DNA of 9,631 nt from an uncultured Methanosarcinales archaeon. GTDB taxonomy: Archaea > Halobacteriota > Methanosarcinia > Methanotrichales > Methanotrichaceae. This document shows, in pieces, positions 1,296 to 9,631 of this stretch. Position numbers and translations under genes: made by a program. Numbering within the stretch: the first letter of the stretch is position 1; each line of letters opens with the position of its first letter. The stretch spans positions 1 to 9,631 of the forward strand of contig CALMJN010000368.1 in the NCBI GenBank assembly GCA_937864385.1, given 5' to 3'. The notes below the pieces were generated by a model, which saw only the letters and a program-made list of their open reading frames with translations, made no database searches and was not told the DNA's origin.

Positions 1296-2630
1296 ATGGC
1301 CCTAGATATAAAGACAAAAGATGAGGTCTTTGAGGCAATAGACAAATACAATGTTAGATTTGTCCGGATTTGGTTTACTGATATCCTGGGTGTTCCCAAG
1401 AGCTTCGCCATCAATCCCTCCGAGCTGGAGGGAGCATTTTCCGAGGGCATGGGCTTCGACGGCTCCTCCATCCAGGGCTTTGCCCGCATTCACGAGTCGG
1501 ACATGGTGGCCAAGCCCGATCCAACCACCTTCCAGCTCATTCCCTGGAGGCAGCAGGAAAACTCCGTGGCCAGGATGTTCTGCGATATCCAGAATCCCGA
1601 CGGCAGTCCTTACGAGGGTGATCCCAGGTACGTCCTGAAGAGAAACCTGGCCCGGCTCAAGGATAAAGGCTACAGCTTCTTGGTCGGCCCGGAGCTGGAG
1701 TTCTTCTATTTCAAGAATGAGCACTGCACCGAGATACTGGACAGCGGAGGATACTTCGACCTGACCACGGCGGACAATGCCTCTGATCTGCGGCGTGACA
1801 CCATCCTGGCTCTGGACTCCATGGGGATAGATGTAGAATACAGCCACCATGAGGTTGCTCCATCCCAGCATGAGATCGACCTGCGCTACAAAGATGCACT
1901 GTCCATGGCCGACACGGTCATGACCTACAAGGTCACAGTCAAGGAGATCGCCAGAAGGTACGGCTATCACGCCAGCTTCATGCCCAAACCCATCTTCGGT
2001 CAGAACGGCAGCGGCATGCACGTGCATCAGTCCCTCTTCGCTGGCAAGAGAAATGTTATGTTCGATGCCGGCGACGCCTATCACCTATCCGACGAGGGCA
2101 AGTATTACATCGCCGGGCTGCTCAAACATGCGCCTGAGATCACAGCCGTCACCAACCAGTGGGTCAACTCCTACAAGCGCCTGGTCCCCGGCTATGAGGC
2201 ACCGGTCTATATCTGCTGGGCGAGAAGAAACAGATCCGCTCTGGTCAGAGTGCCCATGTACAAGCCCGGAAAGGAGGCTGCCACCAGGGTGGAGTTCAGA
2301 AGCCCCGATCCCGCCGCCAATCCCTACCTGGCCTTCTCGGTCATGCTGGCAGCGGGCCTGGCGGGCATCGCCAACAAGTACGATCTGCCTTCTCCTCAGG
2401 AAGAAGACATCTACCACATGAGCGATGAGGAAAGGAAGAAGGCGGGAATCACCTCTCTGCCGGGAAGCCTCAATGATGCCATCCAGCTGGCTGAGGGAAG
2501 CAAGCTCATCCGCGAGGCCCTGGGCGAGCACACCTTCAAAGCCTTCATCGCAAACAAGAAGGCAGAGTGGGATGCCTACCGCACCAATGTCACCCAGTGG
2601 GAGCTGGACAGGTACCTGTCCCTGCTCTAG
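1296..2630 (+). CDS. glnA: Glutamine synthetase, type I-alpha
   Basis: Cytosolic enzyme joining ammonium to glutamate with ATP. It forms the first half of the GS-GOGAT route whose second half is encoded next door. The 444 residues match the usual GSI-alpha length. Visible motifs: FDGSSIQGF (54-62), VGPELEFF with a metal-binding Glu (~131-138), HEVAPSQHEID (185-195), NGSGMHVHQS (from 237), GYEAP (299-303, Glu flap), then the RNRSA and EFRSPDPAANPY nucleotide and substrate motifs. Arg64 in GFARIHESD matches the Arg that mediates feedback inhibition in Bacillus and Methanosarcina enzymes. The tail reads DIYHMSDEER as in GSI-alpha, with neither the beta-type insertion nor the adenylylation Tyr context. 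Control is therefore more likely by glutamine, 2-oxoglutarate and small proteins than by adenylylation. The start follows AGGAGG (1280-1285). No glnK or amtB lies beside it here. Confidence 0.97.
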   Translation: MALDIKTKDEVFEAIDKYNVRFVRIWFTDILGVPKSFAINPSELEGAFSEGMGFDGSSIQGFARIHESDMVAKPDPTTFQLIPWRQQENSVARMFCDIQNPDGSPYEGDPRYVLKRNLARLKDKGYSFLVGPELEFFYFKNEHCTEILDSGGYFDLTTADNASDLRRDTILALDSMGIDVEYSHHEVAPSQHEIDLRYKDALSMADTVMTYKVTVKEIARRYGYHASFMPKPIFGQNGSGMHVHQSLFAGKRNVMFDAGDAYHLSDEGKYYIAGLLKHAPEITAVTNQWVNSYKRLVPGYEAPVYICWARRNRSALVRVPMYKPGKEAATRVEFRSPDPAANPYLAFSVMLAAGLAGIANKYDLPSPQEEDIYHMSDEERKKAGITSLPGSLNDAIQLAEGSKLIREALGEHTFKAFIANKKAEWDAYRTNVTQWELDRYLSLL

Positions 2631-2937: not shown

Positions 2938-4065
2938 ATGCCAAGGATTAGAAGGGAGCTTTACAGCAAAGAGATCTGCTCCTGCTCCATCTTTGGAGCC
3001 ATGAACCAGGGTGGAGAGCGCTTCAACGCCGCAGGAGTGATGAGGGCCATAGCCAATATGCATGTCCGAGGCAACGGCCTGGGCGGAGGTTTTGCCGCTT
3101 ACGGCATTTACCCCCACTACAGTGACTACTACGCCTTCCATCTCATGTTCACAGGCAAGAGCATGCAGGATCGGCTGGAGGCCAAAGCAGAGCTGGAGGA
3201 ACTCCTCTGCCATAAGTTCGATGTGGTCTACGATGAGGAGATTCCCCATGAGGATGAGTCAACGATGATCGATCCTCCTCTGATATGGCGCTACTTCCTC
3301 CTTCCTCATAAACGGGGAGAGGAGGAGGCCCTCTCCGACGAGGAATATATTGTCTCCAAGATCATGCAGGTGAACACCAAAATAGAGAATGCCTATGTCT
3401 TCTCTTCCGGCAAGAACATGGGCTGCTTTAAGGGCGTTGGTTACCCGGAAGAGATCGGTCAGTACTTTATGCTGGACCGGCTCTATCAGGCTTACACCTG
3501 GACGGTGCACGGCCGATTCCCCACCAATACCCAGGCCTGGTGGGGGGGAGCCCATCCTTTCAGCCTGCTGGACACCTCCATAGTGCACAACGGCGAGATC
3601 TCCTCTTACGGCACCAACCGCTGGTATCTGGAGATGTACGGCTATGCCTGCACCCTCCAGACCGATACCGAGGTCATAGCCTATGCCGCAGACCTGCTCA
3701 TGAGGAGGCAGAGGCTTCCCATAGATATAGTGGCCAAGATCCTGGCTCCACCCATCTGGAATGCCATCGACAGAATGAACCAATCGGAGAGAAAGCTGCT
3801 CACCACCCTGAGGATGGTCTACGGGCCTCTGCTCATGAATGGGCCTTTTGCCATCATCATCGGCCAGACCGGGAGGATGATCGGCCTTACGGACAGGATA
3901 AGGCTGCGGCCTCTCACTGCCGCCAGGCGGGGGGATATGTTCTATCTCTCCTCGGAGGAAGCATCAATCAGACTGATCTCGCCAGAGCTCGACCGGGTCT
4001 GGACCCCCAACGGCGGAGAGCCGGTCGTGGGCGAGCTAAATAATATGAGGACGGTTCTGCAATGA
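2938..4065 (+). CDS. gltB1: Glutamate synthase, glutamine amidotransferase (class II) subunit
   Basis: A 375-residue class II (Ntn-type) glutaminase. It releases ammonia from glutamine and channels it to the FMN subunit encoded next. It corresponds to the N-terminal domain of bacterial GltB, made here as a separate protein as in many archaea. The likely nucleophile is Cys16 in CSIFG, which would need removal of 15 residues; Cys14 lies two residues before it. Other family marks are VHGRFPTNT (His191, Arg193), AHPF, HNGEI (217-221) and TDTEVIAY (~243). The start codon has GAGG at 2931-2934. The stop overlaps the next ATG in an ATGA (4062-4065), indicating coupled translation and a probable equimolar complex. 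The symbol follows archaeal split-gene usage. Confidence 0.93.
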   Translation: MPRIRRELYSKEICSCSIFGAMNQGGERFNAAGVMRAIANMHVRGNGLGGGFAAYGIYPHYSDYYAFHLMFTGKSMQDRLEAKAELEELLCHKFDVVYDEEIPHEDESTMIDPPLIWRYFLLPHKRGEEEALSDEEYIVSKIMQVNTKIENAYVFSSGKNMGCFKGVGYPEEIGQYFMLDRLYQAYTWTVHGRFPTNTQAWWGGAHPFSLLDTSIVHNGEISSYGTNRWYLEMYGYACTLQTDTEVIAYAADLLMRRQRLPIDIVAKILAPPIWNAIDRMNQSERKLLTTLRMVYGPLLMNGPFAIIIGQTGRMIGLTDRIRLRPLTAARRGDMFYLSSEEASIRLISPELDRVWTPNGGEPVVGELNNMRTVLQ

Positions 4066-5576
4066 AATCATTCGTCTTTCCTGAGTTTCAGATCATACGG
4101 GACGAAGAGAAATGCGGCCAGTGTAGAGGCTGCGAGAGACAGTGCGCCTTTGGCACCCATACCTATGATCCGGTGGCTGACAGGCTGATATCCGATGAAA
4201 CTAAGTGCGCCGGATGCCAGAGATGCGTCATCTTCTGTCCCAAGCATGCCATAGTGGTCCGGCCTGCTCCCTCTTTCTACCGGCCCAATGCCTCCTGGTC
4301 TCGAGAGAAGCTGGATGACCTCAAAAAGCAGGCGGAGACTGGGGGAGTGATCCTCACCGGATCGGGAAACGACAAGCCCTTCCGCATTTACTGGGACCAC
4401 ATACTGCTCAACGCCTCTCAGGTGACCAATCCCTCCATAGATCCCCTGCGTGAGCCCATGGAGCTGCGCACCTTCCTGGGAGCCAAGCCGGATATAATGG
4501 ACATATCCGCCGGCGATGGAAAGGTCGAGATCAAGACCGAGATTGGACCCAACCTCATGGTAGAGACTCCCATATTGTTCTCCGCCATGTCCTATGGAGC
4601 CATAAGCTACAATGCCTTCGGCTCACTGGCCAGAGCCGCCTGCAAATCCGGAACCTACTTCAATACCGGTGAGGGGGGACTGCCAAAAGAGATGAGGCAG
4701 GAGTTTGGCAGATGCGCCATAGTCCAGGTGGCCTCGGGCCGGTTCGGCATAGATGCGGAGTACCTCAACTGCGCTGCTGCGGTGGAGATCAAGGTGGGCC
4801 AGGGAGCTAAACCAGGAATCGGTGGCCATCTGCCCGGAGAGAAGGTCTCCCAGCTGGTAGCTGAGACGCGCATGATTCCCCAGGGAACCGACGCCATATC
4901 CCCGGCGCCGCATCATGACATCTACTCCATTGAGGACCTCTCCATGCTCATCACTGCCTTGAAAGAGGCCACCAATTATGAGAAGCCCATATCGGTCAAG
5001 ATCGCTGCGGTGCATAACTTTGCCGCCATAGCCTCGGGAATAGTGAGGGCGGGGGCGGACATCATTGCCATCGACGGCCTGCGAGGGGGAACTGGCGCCG
5101 CTCCCAAGGCTATCCGGGACAATGTGGGCATACCAATAGAGCTGGCCATATCCTCATTGGATCGCAGGCTGCGGGGAGAGGGCATCAGGAACAGGTGCTC
5201 GATCATTGCTGCCGGAGGGATCCGCTGCAGCGCCGATGTGGTCAAGGCCATTGCTTTGGGAGCGGATGCGGTTTACATCGGATCGGCGGCTCTGATCGCC
5301 ATGGGCTGCACCCTCTGCCAGAAGTGCTATACCGGCAAATGCAACTGGGGCATATGCACCACCGATCCCCGCCTCTCCGGCCGGCTCAATATGGATATCG
5401 CCTCCCAGAGGCTGGCCAATCTCATCTCCGCCTGGTCTCATGAGATAGCGGAGATGCTGGGTGGCATGGGCATCAATGCCCTGGAGAGCCTGAGGGGCAA
5501 CCGGGACCACCTCAGGGGTGTGGGCCTTTATGAGTGGGAACTGGATGTCCTGGGCATCAAGGGAGCCGGAGAGTGA
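4062..5576 (+). CDS. gltB2: Glutamate synthase, ferredoxin-FMN catalytic subunit
   Basis: A 504-residue protein that reduces 2-iminoglutarate, formed from 2-oxoglutarate and ammonia, to glutamate. Residues 1-60 form a ferredoxin domain with two [4Fe-4S] sites (Cys18/21/24/28 and Cys49/52/55/59). The remainder is the FMN-binding barrel, with TGEGG (202-206), KPGIGGHLPGEKV, ISPAPHHDIYSIEDL and GLRGGTGAAP closely matching bacterial GltB. The [3Fe-4S] spacing Cys416-x5-Cys422-x4-Cys427 is present, with extra cysteines at 419 and 432. The built-in ferredoxin domain suggests it accepts electrons directly from ferredoxin-like donors. No GltD-type NADPH subunit is encoded in the window. It overlaps gltB1 by four bases and lies six bases before gltB3. 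Confidence 0.95.
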   Translation: MKSFVFPEFQIIRDEEKCGQCRGCERQCAFGTHTYDPVADRLISDETKCAGCQRCVIFCPKHAIVVRPAPSFYRPNASWSREKLDDLKKQAETGGVILTGSGNDKPFRIYWDHILLNASQVTNPSIDPLREPMELRTFLGAKPDIMDISAGDGKVEIKTEIGPNLMVETPILFSAMSYGAISYNAFGSLARAACKSGTYFNTGEGGLPKEMRQEFGRCAIVQVASGRFGIDAEYLNCAAAVEIKVGQGAKPGIGGHLPGEKVSQLVAETRMIPQGTDAISPAPHHDIYSIEDLSMLITALKEATNYEKPISVKIAAVHNFAAIASGIVRAGADIIAIDGLRGGTGAAPKAIRDNVGIPIELAISSLDRRLRGEGIRNRCSIIAAGGIRCSADVVKAIALGADAVYIGSAALIAMGCTLCQKCYTGKCNWGICTTDPRLSGRLNMDIASQRLANLISAWSHEIAEMLGGMGINALESLRGNRDHLRGVGLYEWELDVLGIKGAGE

Positions 5577-5582
5577 GAGAGA

Positions 5583-6395
5583 ATGGCCAGAGCGGAAGAG
5601 GTCAATGGCAGCGGCAGTTTGGATGATGCCCCGGCAAGCCCCAGGGAGGTGGAGATAGATGCCGCTGACCAGGACACCAGAGCCCTGAACGACCGGCTCA
5701 GAGAGCTTTTGCTCTCGGGAGTGGAGAAGGTTGTCATCAGAAATGTCTGTGGCCAGAGGTACATAGGAACCCGGCTCTACACTCCTCAGCATCTGAAGAT
5801 GGATATTGAGATCTTTGGAACTCCCGGCAACGACCTGGCTGCCTTTCTCTTCGGCCATAAGATAACCGTTCACGGCAACGCCCAGGACGGTGTGGGAAAT
5901 ACCATGGATGCAGGAGAGGTGGTGGTACATGGCCGTTCGGGAGATGTTCTCGGCTTTTCCATGCGTGGCGGCGAGATCTATGTGAGGGATGGCTGCGGGT
6001 ACAGAACTGCCCTGCATATGAAAGAGTATGAGGACAAGAGGCCGGTGCTGGTCATAGGAGGCACAGCCCAGGACTTTCTGGGGGAGTACATGGCAGGAGG
6101 AATTGTGGTTTTGCTGGACCTGGAAGAGAGGGGCCATCAGGCCAATTTCATAGGAACAGGAATGCACGGAGGGGTGATCTATCTGCGGGGTGCCGTGGAT
6201 GGATCCCAGCTGGGAAGCCAAGTGGGCTGTTCGCCTGTAGATCCGTCAGATCGCAAGGTTCTGGATCATTATATCACCCGGTTCCTGGAAAGGCTTCCTG
6301 AGGTGGGCCTGAGTAGGGAGGAGATAATCAACTCTCCCTTCCTCAGGCTGACCCCCAAATCGAAGAGACCTTATAGCACTCTGTATACCTACTAA
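5583..6395 (+). CDS. gltB3: Glutamate synthase, GXGXG (beta-helix) subunit
   Basis: A 270-residue protein matching the C-terminal domain of bacterial GltB, a right-handed beta-helix. That domain has no catalytic residues and holds the amidotransferase and FMN domains in place around the ammonia tunnel. Repeated Gly-rich turns run over residues ~90-210, for example GNAQDGVGNTM, GRSGDVLGFSM, GGTAQDFLGEYM and GTGMHGGVIYL. VCGQRYIGTRL near residue 55 is typical of the family entry strand. The first ~20 residues are a polar, acidic extension of uncertain role. The same fold occurs in the C subunit of formylmethanofuran dehydrogenase, but the two upstream genes fix it as the GOGAT subunit. It begins six bases after gltB2 with a weak GAGAG ribosome site, so coupling is likely. 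Confidence 0.92.
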   Translation: MARAEEVNGSGSLDDAPASPREVEIDAADQDTRALNDRLRELLLSGVEKVVIRNVCGQRYIGTRLYTPQHLKMDIEIFGTPGNDLAAFLFGHKITVHGNAQDGVGNTMDAGEVVVHGRSGDVLGFSMRGGEIYVRDGCGYRTALHMKEYEDKRPVLVIGGTAQDFLGEYMAGGIVVLLDLEERGHQANFIGTGMHGGVIYLRGAVDGSQLGSQVGCSPVDPSDRKVLDHYITRFLERLPEVGLSREEIINSPFLRLTPKSKRPYSTLYTY

Positions 6396-6415
6396 ATAGA
6401 TCCCCAGTGATAAAG

Positions 6416-8452
6416 ATGACAAAAGTGCTTGTTCCAACTGTCTGTCCCTATTGCGGTGCAGGCTGCGGATTTTACGTTGCGGCAGAGAGGGAGAAGGCCA
6501 TCGGGATAGAATATATGCTTGACCATCCCGTAAGCCAGGGGGCTTTATGCGCCAAGGGAAATGCGGCTTTGGAGATCCTATACCACCCGGATAGGCTCAC
6601 CTCTCCCCTCAAGAGAAGAGGCGAAGGCTGGGCCAGGATCTCCTGGCAGGAGGCCCTGGATCTGGTGGCTAAGGGCCTGGGCCAGGCCAGGAAAAAGCAC
6701 GGTCCCCGGAGCCTTGCTTTCCTGTCCTCCTCCAAGTGCAGCAATGAGGACAATTACCTGATGCAAAAGCTGGCCCGCCTGCTGGGCTCGCCCCACATAG
6801 ACAATTGCGCCCGCCTCTGCCATGCTCCGTCCGTGGTTGGGCTGAACAAAACCCTGGGGGCGGCGGGAATGACCAATCCCATACCGGACATCGCCAGCTC
6901 CAGGTGCATATTCATCATCGGATCGAACCTGGCCGAGAACCATCCGGTCATATCCCGCTGGGTCCACCGGGCCAAGGACCGGGGAGCGATGGTGATCGTG
7001 GCCGATCCCCGCGCCACGCCCACCTCATGGATGGCGGATGTATTTCTGCAGCTGGAGCCCGGAACGGATGTGGCTCTCTTGAATGGCATGGCCCATGTGA
7101 TCATCAATGAGGGGCTGATAAACAGAGAATATATCGCCCAGAAGACGAAAGGCTTTGAGGCTCTGTCCCGGGCGGTAAAGGATTTTACTCCTCAGAGGAC
7201 AGCAGAGATCACCGGGATTGCCCCAGAGGATATAGTGCGGGCAGCCCGGGCCTATGCCACCTCTCCTGCTTCTGCCATTTTATACTCCATGGGCATAACC
7301 CAGCACAGCACGGGAACAGACAATGTTCAGTCAATATCCAACCTGGCCCTGATCTGCGGCCAGATGGGAAGGCCCGGCACGGGAGTCATGCCCCTGCGGG
7401 GCCAGAACAACGTCCAGGGAGCCTGCGATATGGGTGCCCTGGCAGAGTTTTATCCCGGTTATAAAAAGGCTGATGATCCCAATACCATCCGTTATTTCCG
7501 AGAAGCCTGGAATGCCCCGGATCTGCCCCCGGGGCCGGGGCTCACTGCCACAGAGATGATTGAGGCCGCAGGGGCAGGAGAGATTAAAGCCATGTATATC
7601 ATGGGCGAGGACCCGGCCAACTCCGATCCCTGCAGCGAGCATGCCAGGCGGTCTTTAGAAAGCCTGGACTTTTTAGTGGTGCAGGATATATTCATGACCG
7701 CCACAGCCCAGCTGGCGGATGTTGTTTTGCCCGGAGCGGTCTGGGCGGAGAAGGAGGGAAGCTTCACCAATACGGAGAGGCGGGTGCAGTGGAGCCATAA
7801 AGCCATTGAGCCGCCGGGAGAGGCCCGCTCCGACAGGGGTATAATCTGCGATGTGGCCCGGTCCCTGGGGCTGCAATTCGATTATCCTGATGCAGCAAGC
7901 GTTCTGGCCGAGATAAACCGGACCGTTCCCCAGTATGCCGGCATCCTCCGGGAGCGGCTGGAGGGCTCCAGCCTGGTCTGGCCCTGCCCCACTGTCGATC
8001 ATCCGGGAACTCCCATACTTCATCGCTCCGGATTCAATCTGGCGGAAGGCAGAGCCAGCCTAATCCCCGTTCCCTTCAGTCCGGCGGCGGAAGCAGCAAG
8101 CCGGAATCATCCTTTTATCCTCACCACAGGCCGGGTGGCGGTGCACCACAATGCCGGGTCCATGACCAGAAGAAGCCCCTCGCTGATCAGCCGGGAGCCC
8201 GATCTCTTTGTAGAGATGAACCGGGAAGATGCGGCGGCTCTGGATGTGGAAGATGGTGACGAGGTCAGAGTTGCTACAGCGCGGGGGGAGACAGCAGCTT
8301 ATGCCCGGCTCACGGATCGGCTGAAAAAGGGTGTGGTCTTCATGCCCTTCCACTTCCCCGGAACCAATATCCTCACCACGGATGCTATAGATCCGGAGGC
8401 CCGGATACCTGAATTCAAGGTCTGTGCCTGCAATGTCTTTCGGAGGGATTAA
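6416..8452 (+). CDS. fdhA: FdhA-like molybdopterin oxidoreductase (formate dehydrogenase catalytic subunit, Cys type)
   Basis: A 678-residue member of the DMSO-reductase superfamily, close in length to methanogen FdhA and E. coli FdhF. One N-terminal [4Fe-4S] cluster is bound by Cys10, Cys13, Cys17 and Cys45. Lys47 matches the Lys that links the cluster to the cofactor in FdhF. NCARLCHAPSV places Cys135-His136 at the FdhF Sec140-His141 site, so the metal ligand is cysteine. Arg328 and Gln330 in LRGQNNVQGACDMG match the formate-binding pair. A C-terminal cofactor-binding domain (~560-678) is present. Expected reaction: formate to CO2 plus two electrons. ATG 6416 was preferred over GTG 6407 because GTGAT (6407-6411) then serves as ribosome site. 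It lies 20 bases after gltB3 and abuts the HycB-like gene. No F420-reducing FdhB is seen. Formate is the likeliest substrate; another small substrate is possible. Confidence 0.88.
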   Translation: MTKVLVPTVCPYCGAGCGFYVAAEREKAIGIEYMLDHPVSQGALCAKGNAALEILYHPDRLTSPLKRRGEGWARISWQEALDLVAKGLGQARKKHGPRSLAFLSSSKCSNEDNYLMQKLARLLGSPHIDNCARLCHAPSVVGLNKTLGAAGMTNPIPDIASSRCIFIIGSNLAENHPVISRWVHRAKDRGAMVIVADPRATPTSWMADVFLQLEPGTDVALLNGMAHVIINEGLINREYIAQKTKGFEALSRAVKDFTPQRTAEITGIAPEDIVRAARAYATSPASAILYSMGITQHSTGTDNVQSISNLALICGQMGRPGTGVMPLRGQNNVQGACDMGALAEFYPGYKKADDPNTIRYFREAWNAPDLPPGPGLTATEMIEAAGAGEIKAMYIMGEDPANSDPCSEHARRSLESLDFLVVQDIFMTATAQLADVVLPGAVWAEKEGSFTNTERRVQWSHKAIEPPGEARSDRGIICDVARSLGLQFDYPDAASVLAEINRTVPQYAGILRERLEGSSLVWPCPTVDHPGTPILHRSGFNLAEGRASLIPVPFSPAAEAASRNHPFILTTGRVAVHHNAGSMTRRSPSLISREPDLFVEMNREDAAALDVEDGDEVRVATARGETAAYARLTDRLKKGVVFMPFHFPGTNILTTDAIDPEARIPEFKVCACNVFRRD

Positions 8453-8893
8453 ATGGCGGTTTATATTGATATAAACAGATGCATCGGCTGCCGCTCCTGC
8501 GAGGTGGCCTGCCAGAGGGTGCACGGCGGACATGGACATATCAATGTGCACTATGTAAGAGAATATGCCGCCGTTCCCGTTTTATGCCATCATTGCCAGG
8601 AGGCAGGCTGCACTATGGTCTGCTTTACCGGAGCCCTGCATAAAGAGGGAGAGTGCACCGCCTTTGATGTAGAGAAGTGCACCGGCTGCGGCTTATGCGC
8701 CCTGGCCTGCCCCTTCGGGGTGGTCTGGACGGATAAGATAGCTCATAAGTGCGACCTCTGCCAGGGCCGAGAGGAAGGGCCGGCCTGCATCGCCACCTGT
8801 CCGGCCAATGCCCTGTCTGATGATTTTGATCTGGCGACTCGCCGGGCAAGGGAGCGTGCCGTTCGAGCTGCAGCCGTAGGAGGCAAAAGATGA
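8453..8893 (+). CDS. HycB/HydN-like four-cluster [4Fe-4S] electron-transfer subunit
   Basis: A 146-residue polyferredoxin of the type that pairs with molybdopterin enzymes (HycB, HydN, DMSO-reductase beta family). Four clusters can be read: Cys10/13/16/20, Cys45/48/53/57, Cys76/79/82/86 and Cys100/103/112/116, with the family's cross-ligation expected. The second motif ends in Cys-Phe rather than Cys-Pro. No signal peptide or membrane segment is present, so it is cytosolic. The ATG abuts the fdhA stop codon and follows GGAGGG (8442-8447). The stop overlaps the next gene by an ATGA. It probably takes electrons from the FdhA cluster and passes them on, replacing the F420-dependent FdhB of other methanogens. 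Confidence 0.9.
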   Translation: MAVYIDINRCIGCRSCEVACQRVHGGHGHINVHYVREYAAVPVLCHHCQEAGCTMVCFTGALHKEGECTAFDVEKCTGCGLCALACPFGVVWTDKIAHKCDLCQGREEGPACIATCPANALSDDFDLATRRARERAVRAAAVGGKR

Positions 8894-9309
8894 TACGAGT
8901 CGACGCCAGGCTCTGTCTGGGATGCATGTCCTGCTCCAATGTCTGTCCCAGCCAGAATATAACCAGAAGCGAGATCGATGGGAAAAGGACAGTTCACTGG
9001 AAGAGATGCAAAGAGGAGTGCGACCTATGCGTGGAGCTCTGTCCGGCCAAAGCTCTATCTTTAGTGCCCTGGGATGAGAATGTTCCTGAGCCCGAGATCT
9101 CCTTTGATCTGGTTGCCTGCAAGATCTGTGGTTCTCCCTATGCCACGGAGCCCATGCTGCAAAGAATCGAGTCATCCCTTCCTCAAGAGATGCAGAAGGA
9201 TGCGGGCGGCCTGGAGTGGATCCGCATCTGTCCTGTCTGCAGGCGCAATTTAGAGGCGGAGGGGACTGCCAGGCAGGTGGTGCTGGCCAGGAGCAGGAAA
9301 AGAGCCTGA
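8890..9309 (+). CDS. HycF/HyfH-like ferredoxin protein with two Cys pairs at the C-terminus
   Basis: A 139-residue protein. One standard [4Fe-4S] motif is Cys9/12/15/19 followed by Pro. A second has unusual spacing, Cys40-x3-Cys44-x2-Cys47-x3-Cys51-Pro. CKICGSPYAT (Cys77/80) and CPVCRRN (Cys114/117) form two CxxC knuckles ~34 residues apart, as in HycF/HyfH-type subunits, and may bind zinc or iron. No membrane helix is seen. In formate hydrogenlyases this subunit carries electrons from the HycB-like protein to the hydrogenase. Here the hydrogenase is not in view, so it may feed another acceptor. Translation starts at an ATGA overlap with a strong AGGAGG (8878-8883) six bases upstream. Confidence 0.82.
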   Translation: MIRVDARLCLGCMSCSNVCPSQNITRSEIDGKRTVHWKRCKEECDLCVELCPAKALSLVPWDENVPEPEISFDLVACKICGSPYATEPMLQRIESSLPQEMQKDAGGLEWIRICPVCRRNLEAEGTARQVVLARSRKRA

Positions 9310-9362: not shown

Positions 9363-9631
9363 ATGGAAAGGAATGGACCCATAATCGTTGACGGGGATCT
9401 CCGCACTCGCTGTGGGATCTGCTCGGTAGTCTGCCCCTCGGTAATCACCGTCGCCGGATACGATGGCGGCCTTCCTTTGGTCGGAAGAGAGTATGCGGCC
9501 ATCTGTCTGCAATGCGGCCACTGCCAAGCCTTTTGCCCCACCGGAGCGCTGACACTCAACCTGCGCCCTAAGAGAGAATGCCCCTGCCGGAGGGGGCAGG
9601 CGAGATCGCGCTGCGGTCGCGCGGCACGCCG
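9363..9631 (+). CDS. Partial ferredoxin-domain protein, possibly a ferredoxin-nitroreductase fusion (cut by window edge)
   Basis: The frame opens at ATG 9363, 53 bases after the HycF-like gene, and stays open to the right edge (89 complete codons). A first cluster motif has Cys17/20/24 followed by Pro, but the expected leading Cys at position 14 is Arg (CGC). The second is complete: Cys48/51/54/58, in ICLQCGHCQAFCPTGAL. This spacing and wording resemble the N-terminal ferredoxin domain of flavin nitroreductase-like proteins; the flavin domain would lie beyond the window. After residue 72 the annotated frame becomes Arg/Cys-rich, whereas the +2 frame from 9581 reads PLPEGAGEIALRSRGTP. This hints at a frameshift or sequence error. 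No strong ribosome site precedes 9363. The ferredoxin domain is well supported; the fusion is a guess. Confidence 0.6.
   Translation, partial: MERNGPIIVDGDLRTRCGICSVVCPSVITVAGYDGGLPLVGREYAAICLQCGHCQAFCPTGALTLNLRPKRECPCRRGQARSRCGRAAR

Follow-up and report, generated by a model that had tools for sequence, protein, structure and literature searches.

A glutamate synthase gene row continued by a formate dehydrogenase module in Methanotrichaceae: a possible formate:glutamate synthase

Why should genes for a formate dehydrogenase directly follow the genes for a glutamate synthase in an archaeon? This arrangement is found on contig C368 (CALMJN010000368.1, assembly GCA_937864385.1) of an uncultured member of the Methanotrichaceae, a stretch of 9,631 nucleotides that is referred to as the window throughout and belongs to a source genome of 2.26 Mb in 489 contigs that is 93% complete. 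Because the closest named relatives of its FdhA come from Methanosaeta/Methanothrix metagenome-assembled genomes (92-94% identity in the best segment), the source is read from sequence as a Methanothrix, an aceticlastic methanogen. On balance, we favor the interpretation that the row specifies a single complex: formate-derived electrons would pass via FdhA, HycB and HycF and enter the synthase subunit GltB2 at its ferredoxin domain, where they would serve to make glutamate. The row consists of the following genes.

2938-4065, plus strand: gltB1, glutaminase subunit, class-II amidotransferase (PF00310, 7.2e-15; Cys16 in 32/32 covering rows)
4062-5576, plus strand: gltB2, FMN synthase subunit with an N-terminal two-cluster ferredoxin domain (PF01645, 472.9 bits; match to glutamate synthase 2vdc/1ea0, E 6e-70)
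5583-6395, plus strand: gltB3, GXGXG subunit (PF01493, 7.5e-29)
6416-8452, plus strand: fdhA, catalytic subunit of a molybdo-/tungstopterin formate dehydrogenase of the Cys type (TIGR01591, 807.8 bits, cut-off 666.25)
8453-8893, plus strand: hycB-like, four-cluster iron-sulfur protein (best PDB matches to HycB3 of hydrogen-dependent CO2 reductase, HDCR, and HycB of formate hydrogenlyase, FHL; 16 Cys in 31/31 rows)
8890-9309, plus strand: hycF-like, two-cluster iron-sulfur protein with a C-terminal CxxC...CxxC domain

All six genes are real, and they lie in the order given in a preliminary description of this DNA. The first three form a three-gene archaeal glutamate synthase (GltS) with separate amidotransferase, FMN synthase plus ferredoxin domain, and GXGXG genes. 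The 20-base spacing between gltB3 and fdhA reported in that description holds with ATG 6416 as the start of fdhA, as relatives suggest, and would be 11 bases with the in-frame GTG 6407. No terminator-like site was detected between the two genes by a scan built for the bacterial type, which placed three such sites (5695, 5937 and 6451) inside gltB3 or fdhA.

Can the predicted proteins carry electrons from formate to GltB2? Each of the eight ferredoxin cysteines of GltB2 (C18, C21, C24, C28, C49, C52, C55 and C59) is present in 35 of the 35 covering rows of a 39-row alignment, and the Pfam matches of this domain lie at the cut-off (Fer4 21.3 vs 21.1; Fer4_9 26.8 vs 27). FdhA is an FdhF-type catalytic subunit with the active-site Cys/Sec, His and Arg, which are the catalytic residues. 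It matches formate dehydrogenase 9t1s (679.6 bits) and FdhF of HDCR 7qv7 (656.7 bits) in the PDB, with the Cys-His pair and RGQNNVQG aligned. The possibility that FdhA is non-catalytic, as argued in the available text of PMC12054007 for molybdopterin proteins of other Hdr clusters, was set aside because Cys138-His139 (numbered from GTG 6407) occurs in 28/28 rows. The exact string RGQNNVQG is absent from the FdhA of genome G001 and LC-[APS]-KG from that of G006, neither of which is linked to glt genes. The HycB-like protein has the four-cluster make-up of FHL HycB (PDB match 8e-23, 16 conserved cysteines). The HycF-like protein shows the full FHL HycF fold including the C-terminal domain, in a comparison in which most rows cover residues 1-71 and two FHL rows alone cover the C-terminal part. 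Both names derive from best matches below NCBI curated cut-offs, namely AegA and HydN types for the HycB-like protein and PRK12387 (46 vs 204 bits) for the HycF-like protein. The HycF model was built from 39 homologs picked among 120 of 201 matches listed.

These parts resemble E. coli formate hydrogenlyase (FdhF-HycB-HycF with the hydrogenase HycEG) in the family and fold of the three-part formate wire and differ in that a glutamate synthase takes the hydrogenase's place, no NiFe hydrogenase having been found. In the proposed complex, FdhA would oxidize formate, HycB and HycF would relay the electrons to the two-cluster domain of GltB2, and the GltB2 FMN would reduce the imine arising from 2-oxoglutarate and glutamine-derived ammonia. 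The formate couple, at about -0.43 V, is low enough for this path. Formate might come from syntrophic neighbors, which would spare ferredoxin for energy conservation. A protein of the formate/nitrite transporter family (FdhC-type) was found in 35 of 50 family genomes: in 20 of the 24 with linked gltB3-fdhA, 5 of the 6 with hycBF and without fdhA at the locus, 3 of the 10 in which gltB has neither module, 5 of the 8 that lack gltB and 2 of the 2 with a cut locus. This distribution fits formate use; the counts are confounded by descent and include partial matches in G000 and G024.

How widespread is the row? Among the 50 family genomes, gltB3 and fdhA lie on one contig in 24 (the linked state), 22 of which also have hycB and hycF on it; in the other two, G022 and G026, the contig ends within fdhA. 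In six genomes gltB3 is followed by hycB-hycF without fdhA (G003, G016, G018, G033, G037 and G039; the G037 call rests on a 38-residue GltB3 end at the contig start), and four of these six are covered by the HycBF residue counts. Neither module accompanies gltB in ten (G001, G002, G006 and G041-G047), a count that includes G047, with GltB2 split over two frames, and G002, where a gene for a distant molybdopterin protein (24%) converges on gltB3. Contig ends cut the gltB locus in two (G025, G036), and gltB was not found in eight (G005, G015, G023, G027, G028, G031, G048 and G049), of which G023 is just 58% complete. The adjacency seen earlier in a single genome is therefore not a one-strain feature. 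FdhA identity to the window protein goes down to 64% (G004; next lowest 73%), and the fdhA-hycB gap is 0-3 bases in 22/22 loci. Flanking genes turn over while the row persists: the eight g8 loci have no glnA beside gltB1, and the genes downstream differ. This turnover and the 24 genomes argue against chance adjacency, which was set aside. In a quick tree without G022 and G026, the glt-linked FdhAs (22 of the 24) form one clade together with two unlinked FdhAs, from G001 and from G006; the branching of this clade is, by eye, much like that of GltB. G008 and G010 carry a second fdhA, a paralog, downstream of hycF in the same orientation (L062 11080-13134; L063 5444-7420).

What do the loci lacking fdhA tell about the roles of the parts? 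In a careful GltB1+2+3 tree of 42 rows (39 family genomes and three outgroup rows, the gltB-bearing G025 and G037 being left out and four rows having under half of the columns), the five fdhA-less rows are spread: G018 groups with the linked G035, G033 with the window clade, and G016, G039 and G003 lie elsewhere. A single fdhA-less clade was rejected (p-AU 9.3e-49), and at least five changes between the two states are needed (eight with a third state). A HycB+HycF tree, which has open forks and a long-branch warning, places these rows much where GltB does, and hycBF therefore appears to have been inherited with gltB. Since the FdhA tree also branches much like GltB, repeated loss of fdhA would be simpler than repeated insertion at one place, the direction of change being one that we infer. 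No FdhA of the glt-linked clade was found in the fdhA-less genomes, where the best matches reach 47-59% identity and where G039 (78% complete) lacks a full-length FdhA. A precedent for such loci is E. coli, where fdhF sits away from the hyc operon according to the available text of PMC6004506.

Ratios of nonsynonymous to synonymous substitution (dN/dS; Biopython YN00, with NG86 as fall-back) for HycB and HycF were obtained for 13 chosen pairs, covering G016, G018 and G033 among the fdhA-less genomes. They were 0.06-0.16 in five pairs of G018 or G033 with linked genomes, 0.18 (HycB) and 0.30 (HycF) for G016, and 0.05-0.18 in seven pairs of linked genomes. As judged from these ratios, HycBF is a module that stays constrained without adjacent FdhA. 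The linear path from FdhA through the HycB- and HycF-like proteins to GltB2, as drawn in the preliminary description, fits the linkage and these findings, but because HycBF adjoin GltB3 in six genomes without fdhA there, they are better read as wiring on the GltS side. HycB-HycF would be the standing electron-input wire of GltS and FdhA a removable, formate-oxidizing plug; where fdhA was lost, HycBF might be fed by another source such as ferredoxin or an FdhA encoded elsewhere.

Besides the higher ratios of G016, several observations weigh against a dedicated complex. HycBF-like pairs without gltB occur in three genomes: in G027 the pair directly succeeds glnA, and in G028 and G031 a gene for an NfnA-like FAD protein (PRK06222) is nearby. 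Free second pairs occur in G018 and G037. At E <= 1e-15, the HycF profile matched 40 of 50 genomes (24/24 linked, 6/6 fdhA-less, the two cut and eight others, namely G001, G006, G027, G028, G031, G046, G047 and G049). Second HycF-type matches occur in ten genomes, and the gene context was viewed for the ones in G009, G018 and G037. A strict dedication of HycBF to GltS is weakened by the three genomes and the second copies. Since pairs also occur without gltB and free, HycBF is a portable wire whose commonest partner in the family is GltS. Furthermore, ferredoxin alone may suffice for GltS, given that ten family genomes have the synthase with neither module. This bears on an alternative in which GltS is fed by ferredoxin through the GltB2 domain while HycBF, with or without FdhA, refill the ferredoxin pool from formate, i.e. 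soluble coupling and no complex. The ten genomes, the free HycBF copies and the conservation of the two-cluster domain throughout the linked, fdhA-less and gltB-alone rows all speak for it. However, tight spacing and repeated retention of HycBF beside GltB3 would exceed the need of a diffusing carrier, and we regard this alternative as quite improbable.

In G001 and G006, moreover, gltB and fdhA-hycBF are on separate contigs; a CO dehydrogenase gene (cooS) adjoins fdhA-hycBF in G001, and kindred CooS rows occur in G009, G046 and G049. Such loci favor a further alternative: FdhA-HycB-HycF as an independent enzyme linked to ferredoxin, either a formate dehydrogenase or a CO2 reductase, providing for instance formate for purine synthesis, that shares an operon with GltS as both are anabolic. 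This leaves unexplained why fdhA goes in six genomes yet hycBF stay beside gltB3, and the swapping of flanks around a persisting gltB-fdhA-hycBF row also counts against it; we consider it unlikely.

Does GltS, or FdhA, have another electron partner? The preliminary description had stated that an NADPH-type GltD is missing. This is true within the window, where no gltD adjoins gltB as in NADPH-type GltBD, but contig C389 of the same genome encodes a TIGR01316 protein over cut-off (NCBI name NADPH-dependent glutamate synthase), which could be a GltS partner in trans and is a further point against a formate-fed enzyme. No NiFe hydrogenase gene of the HycE/HycG type is present in the window, and the source genome has a single PF00374 match (28.6 bits), confined to the first 68 of the 508 positions. 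Across the family, 42 of 50 genomes gave PF00374 matches, and among those listed none extends past these 68 positions; two matched frames that were scored (L237 and L238, from two relatives) are FpoD by NCBIfam over cut-off, with an FpoC part. As the matches are partial only and the two scored frames are FpoD, formate hydrogenlyase with a hydrogenase in trans was set aside. Coupling to F420 was likewise set aside: no FrhB/FdhB-type subunit adjoins gltB in the window, and the only PF04432 match of the source genome is an FrhB-type protein on another contig (C413), fused to a NuoG-like ferredoxin region. Finally, FdhA-HycBF might feed a membrane complex in trans (Fpo, a relative of complex I), with the GltS linkage incidental. 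The recurrent neighbor in the loci viewed is gltB, no specific search for fpo genes having been made there, and this alternative appears highly improbable.

Is the input of the synthase fixed outside the family? A class-wide search of 237 genomes yielded GltB2 at E <= 1e-100 in 170, 39 of them in the family. In a non-random sample of 20 loci hand-picked among the 131 others, an HdrB-like protein lies directly upstream of gltB1 in ten, an FrhB-type protein is adjacent in seven, neither in one, and a contig edge intervenes in two. One representative of each cluster was scored, the HdrB-like one being under cut-off (282.9 vs 345.15). The HdrB-like gene overlaps gltB1 in eight loci and is separated from it by 14 and 117 bases in two (L182-L188, L190, L192 and L193); in L182, an HdrA2-like gene lies further upstream. 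These loci possibly encode an Hdr-fed glutamate synthase. The neighbor of one GltS core thus varies by lineage, which supports the neighbor as electron input. It appears about as probable as its converse that the locus encodes a formate:glutamate synthase in which the FdhA-HycB-HycF half of FHL has moved from a hydrogenase to GltS. The archaeal GltS core would then be a general socket whose input depends on the lineage: FrhB where F420H2 is the donor, an HdrB-like protein in further families of the class, and FdhA-HycBF in Methanothrix. From this socket, the formate plug would have been pulled repeatedly.

Upstream of the row lies a further gene.

1296-2630, plus strand: glnA, type I glutamine synthetase (over the TIGR00653 cut-off with 547.7 bits)

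Lying upstream of gltB1 on the same strand, as in many further loci, glnA probably has its own transcript; a terminator-like site is located at its end (2630-2645). A ferredoxin-type gene at 9363-9631 is cut by the contig end, and its relative in L099 extends into a nitroreductase domain (PF00881). Among relatives, a glutamate dehydrogenase gene lies near the G037 locus (L242 1664-2920; NF040817, 591 bits against a cut-off of 750), with BLAST-clustered copies near the locus in the linked G035 and in G018 (L081, L082). In G027 (L239 5297-6556), three separate stretches matching glnA immediately precede hycB-hycF, and gltB1-3 and fdhA are missing there. A degenerate FdhA remnant, matching only at both ends (residues 2-76 and 539-681), lies beside hycB-hycF in G047 (L245 340-944). 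CooS-HycB-FdhA-HycB-HycF rows, with CooS over the TIGR01702 cut-off, were seen in four Methanotrichaceae genomes (L087 5447-11009, L224, L213 and L246). These rows, found in G001, G009, G046 and G049, point to a possible complex that exchanges CO and formate; the FdhA of the G001 row falls in the glt-linked clade. Other FdhA paralogs adjoin NfnA-like, sulfhydrogenase-beta-like, FmdE, FdhD or HdrA2 genes (L221, L203, L219, L210, L217, L209), and FdhA thus seems to be used with many redox partners in Methanothrix.

How does the row compare with known systems? The F420-dependent glutamate synthase (FGltS), proposed in PMC3448663 and a third putative group in PMC9012536 as far as their available text goes, likewise has a gene for electron input next to an archaeal GltS core; its input is an FrhB/FdhB-type F420H2 dehydrogenase, whereas here it would be FdhA-HycB-HycF. 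HDCR (7qv7) pairs FdhF with HycB3/HycB4 and is among the best PDB matches of FdhA and the HycB-like protein, whereas none of its chains is among the matches listed for the HycF-like query. The partner of HDCR is an FeFe hydrogenase. In AegA/YgfT of E. coli, which head the NCBIfam matches for the HycB-like protein at scores below cut-off, a HycB-like domain is joined to a part resembling the glutamate synthase small subunit; they differ in having this GltD-like module and no GltB synthase, and their NCBI names cite formate-dependent uric acid use. Another Methanothrix FdhA with a redox partner belongs to the FdhA-HdrABC cluster MCON_3277-83 of M. soehngenii, proposed in the available text of PMC7382037 to feed methanogenesis; similarly, one FdhA of G016 adjoins an HdrA2 (L209) and falls in a clade different from that of the glt-linked FdhAs.

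In the accessible portions of the literature, the reductants of characterized glutamate synthases are NADH, NADPH and reduced ferredoxin, with F420H2 proposed (PMC3448663), and formate dehydrogenase activity is cited for two strains and its absence for another (PMC6687939). The available text of PMC12072023, PMC9853277, PMC11087674 and PMC8674449 holds nothing bearing on a gltB-fdhA locus, and no statement of an fdhA-glutamate synthase link in Methanothrix was found in the open-access literature searched. Each part belongs to a known family; the combination, its family-wide conservation and the pattern of fdhA loss were not found in that literature, as far as it was accessible.

What would the finding mean for these organisms? 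Methanothrix is a major methane producer that is held to live on acetate, and the role of its formate dehydrogenases is disputed. If true, our proposal would assign a role in biosynthesis to one of them, endow a glutamate synthase with a new reductant and show that the formate hydrogenlyase wire has moved to a different enzyme. The species that lack fdhA alone provide a natural control for experiments.

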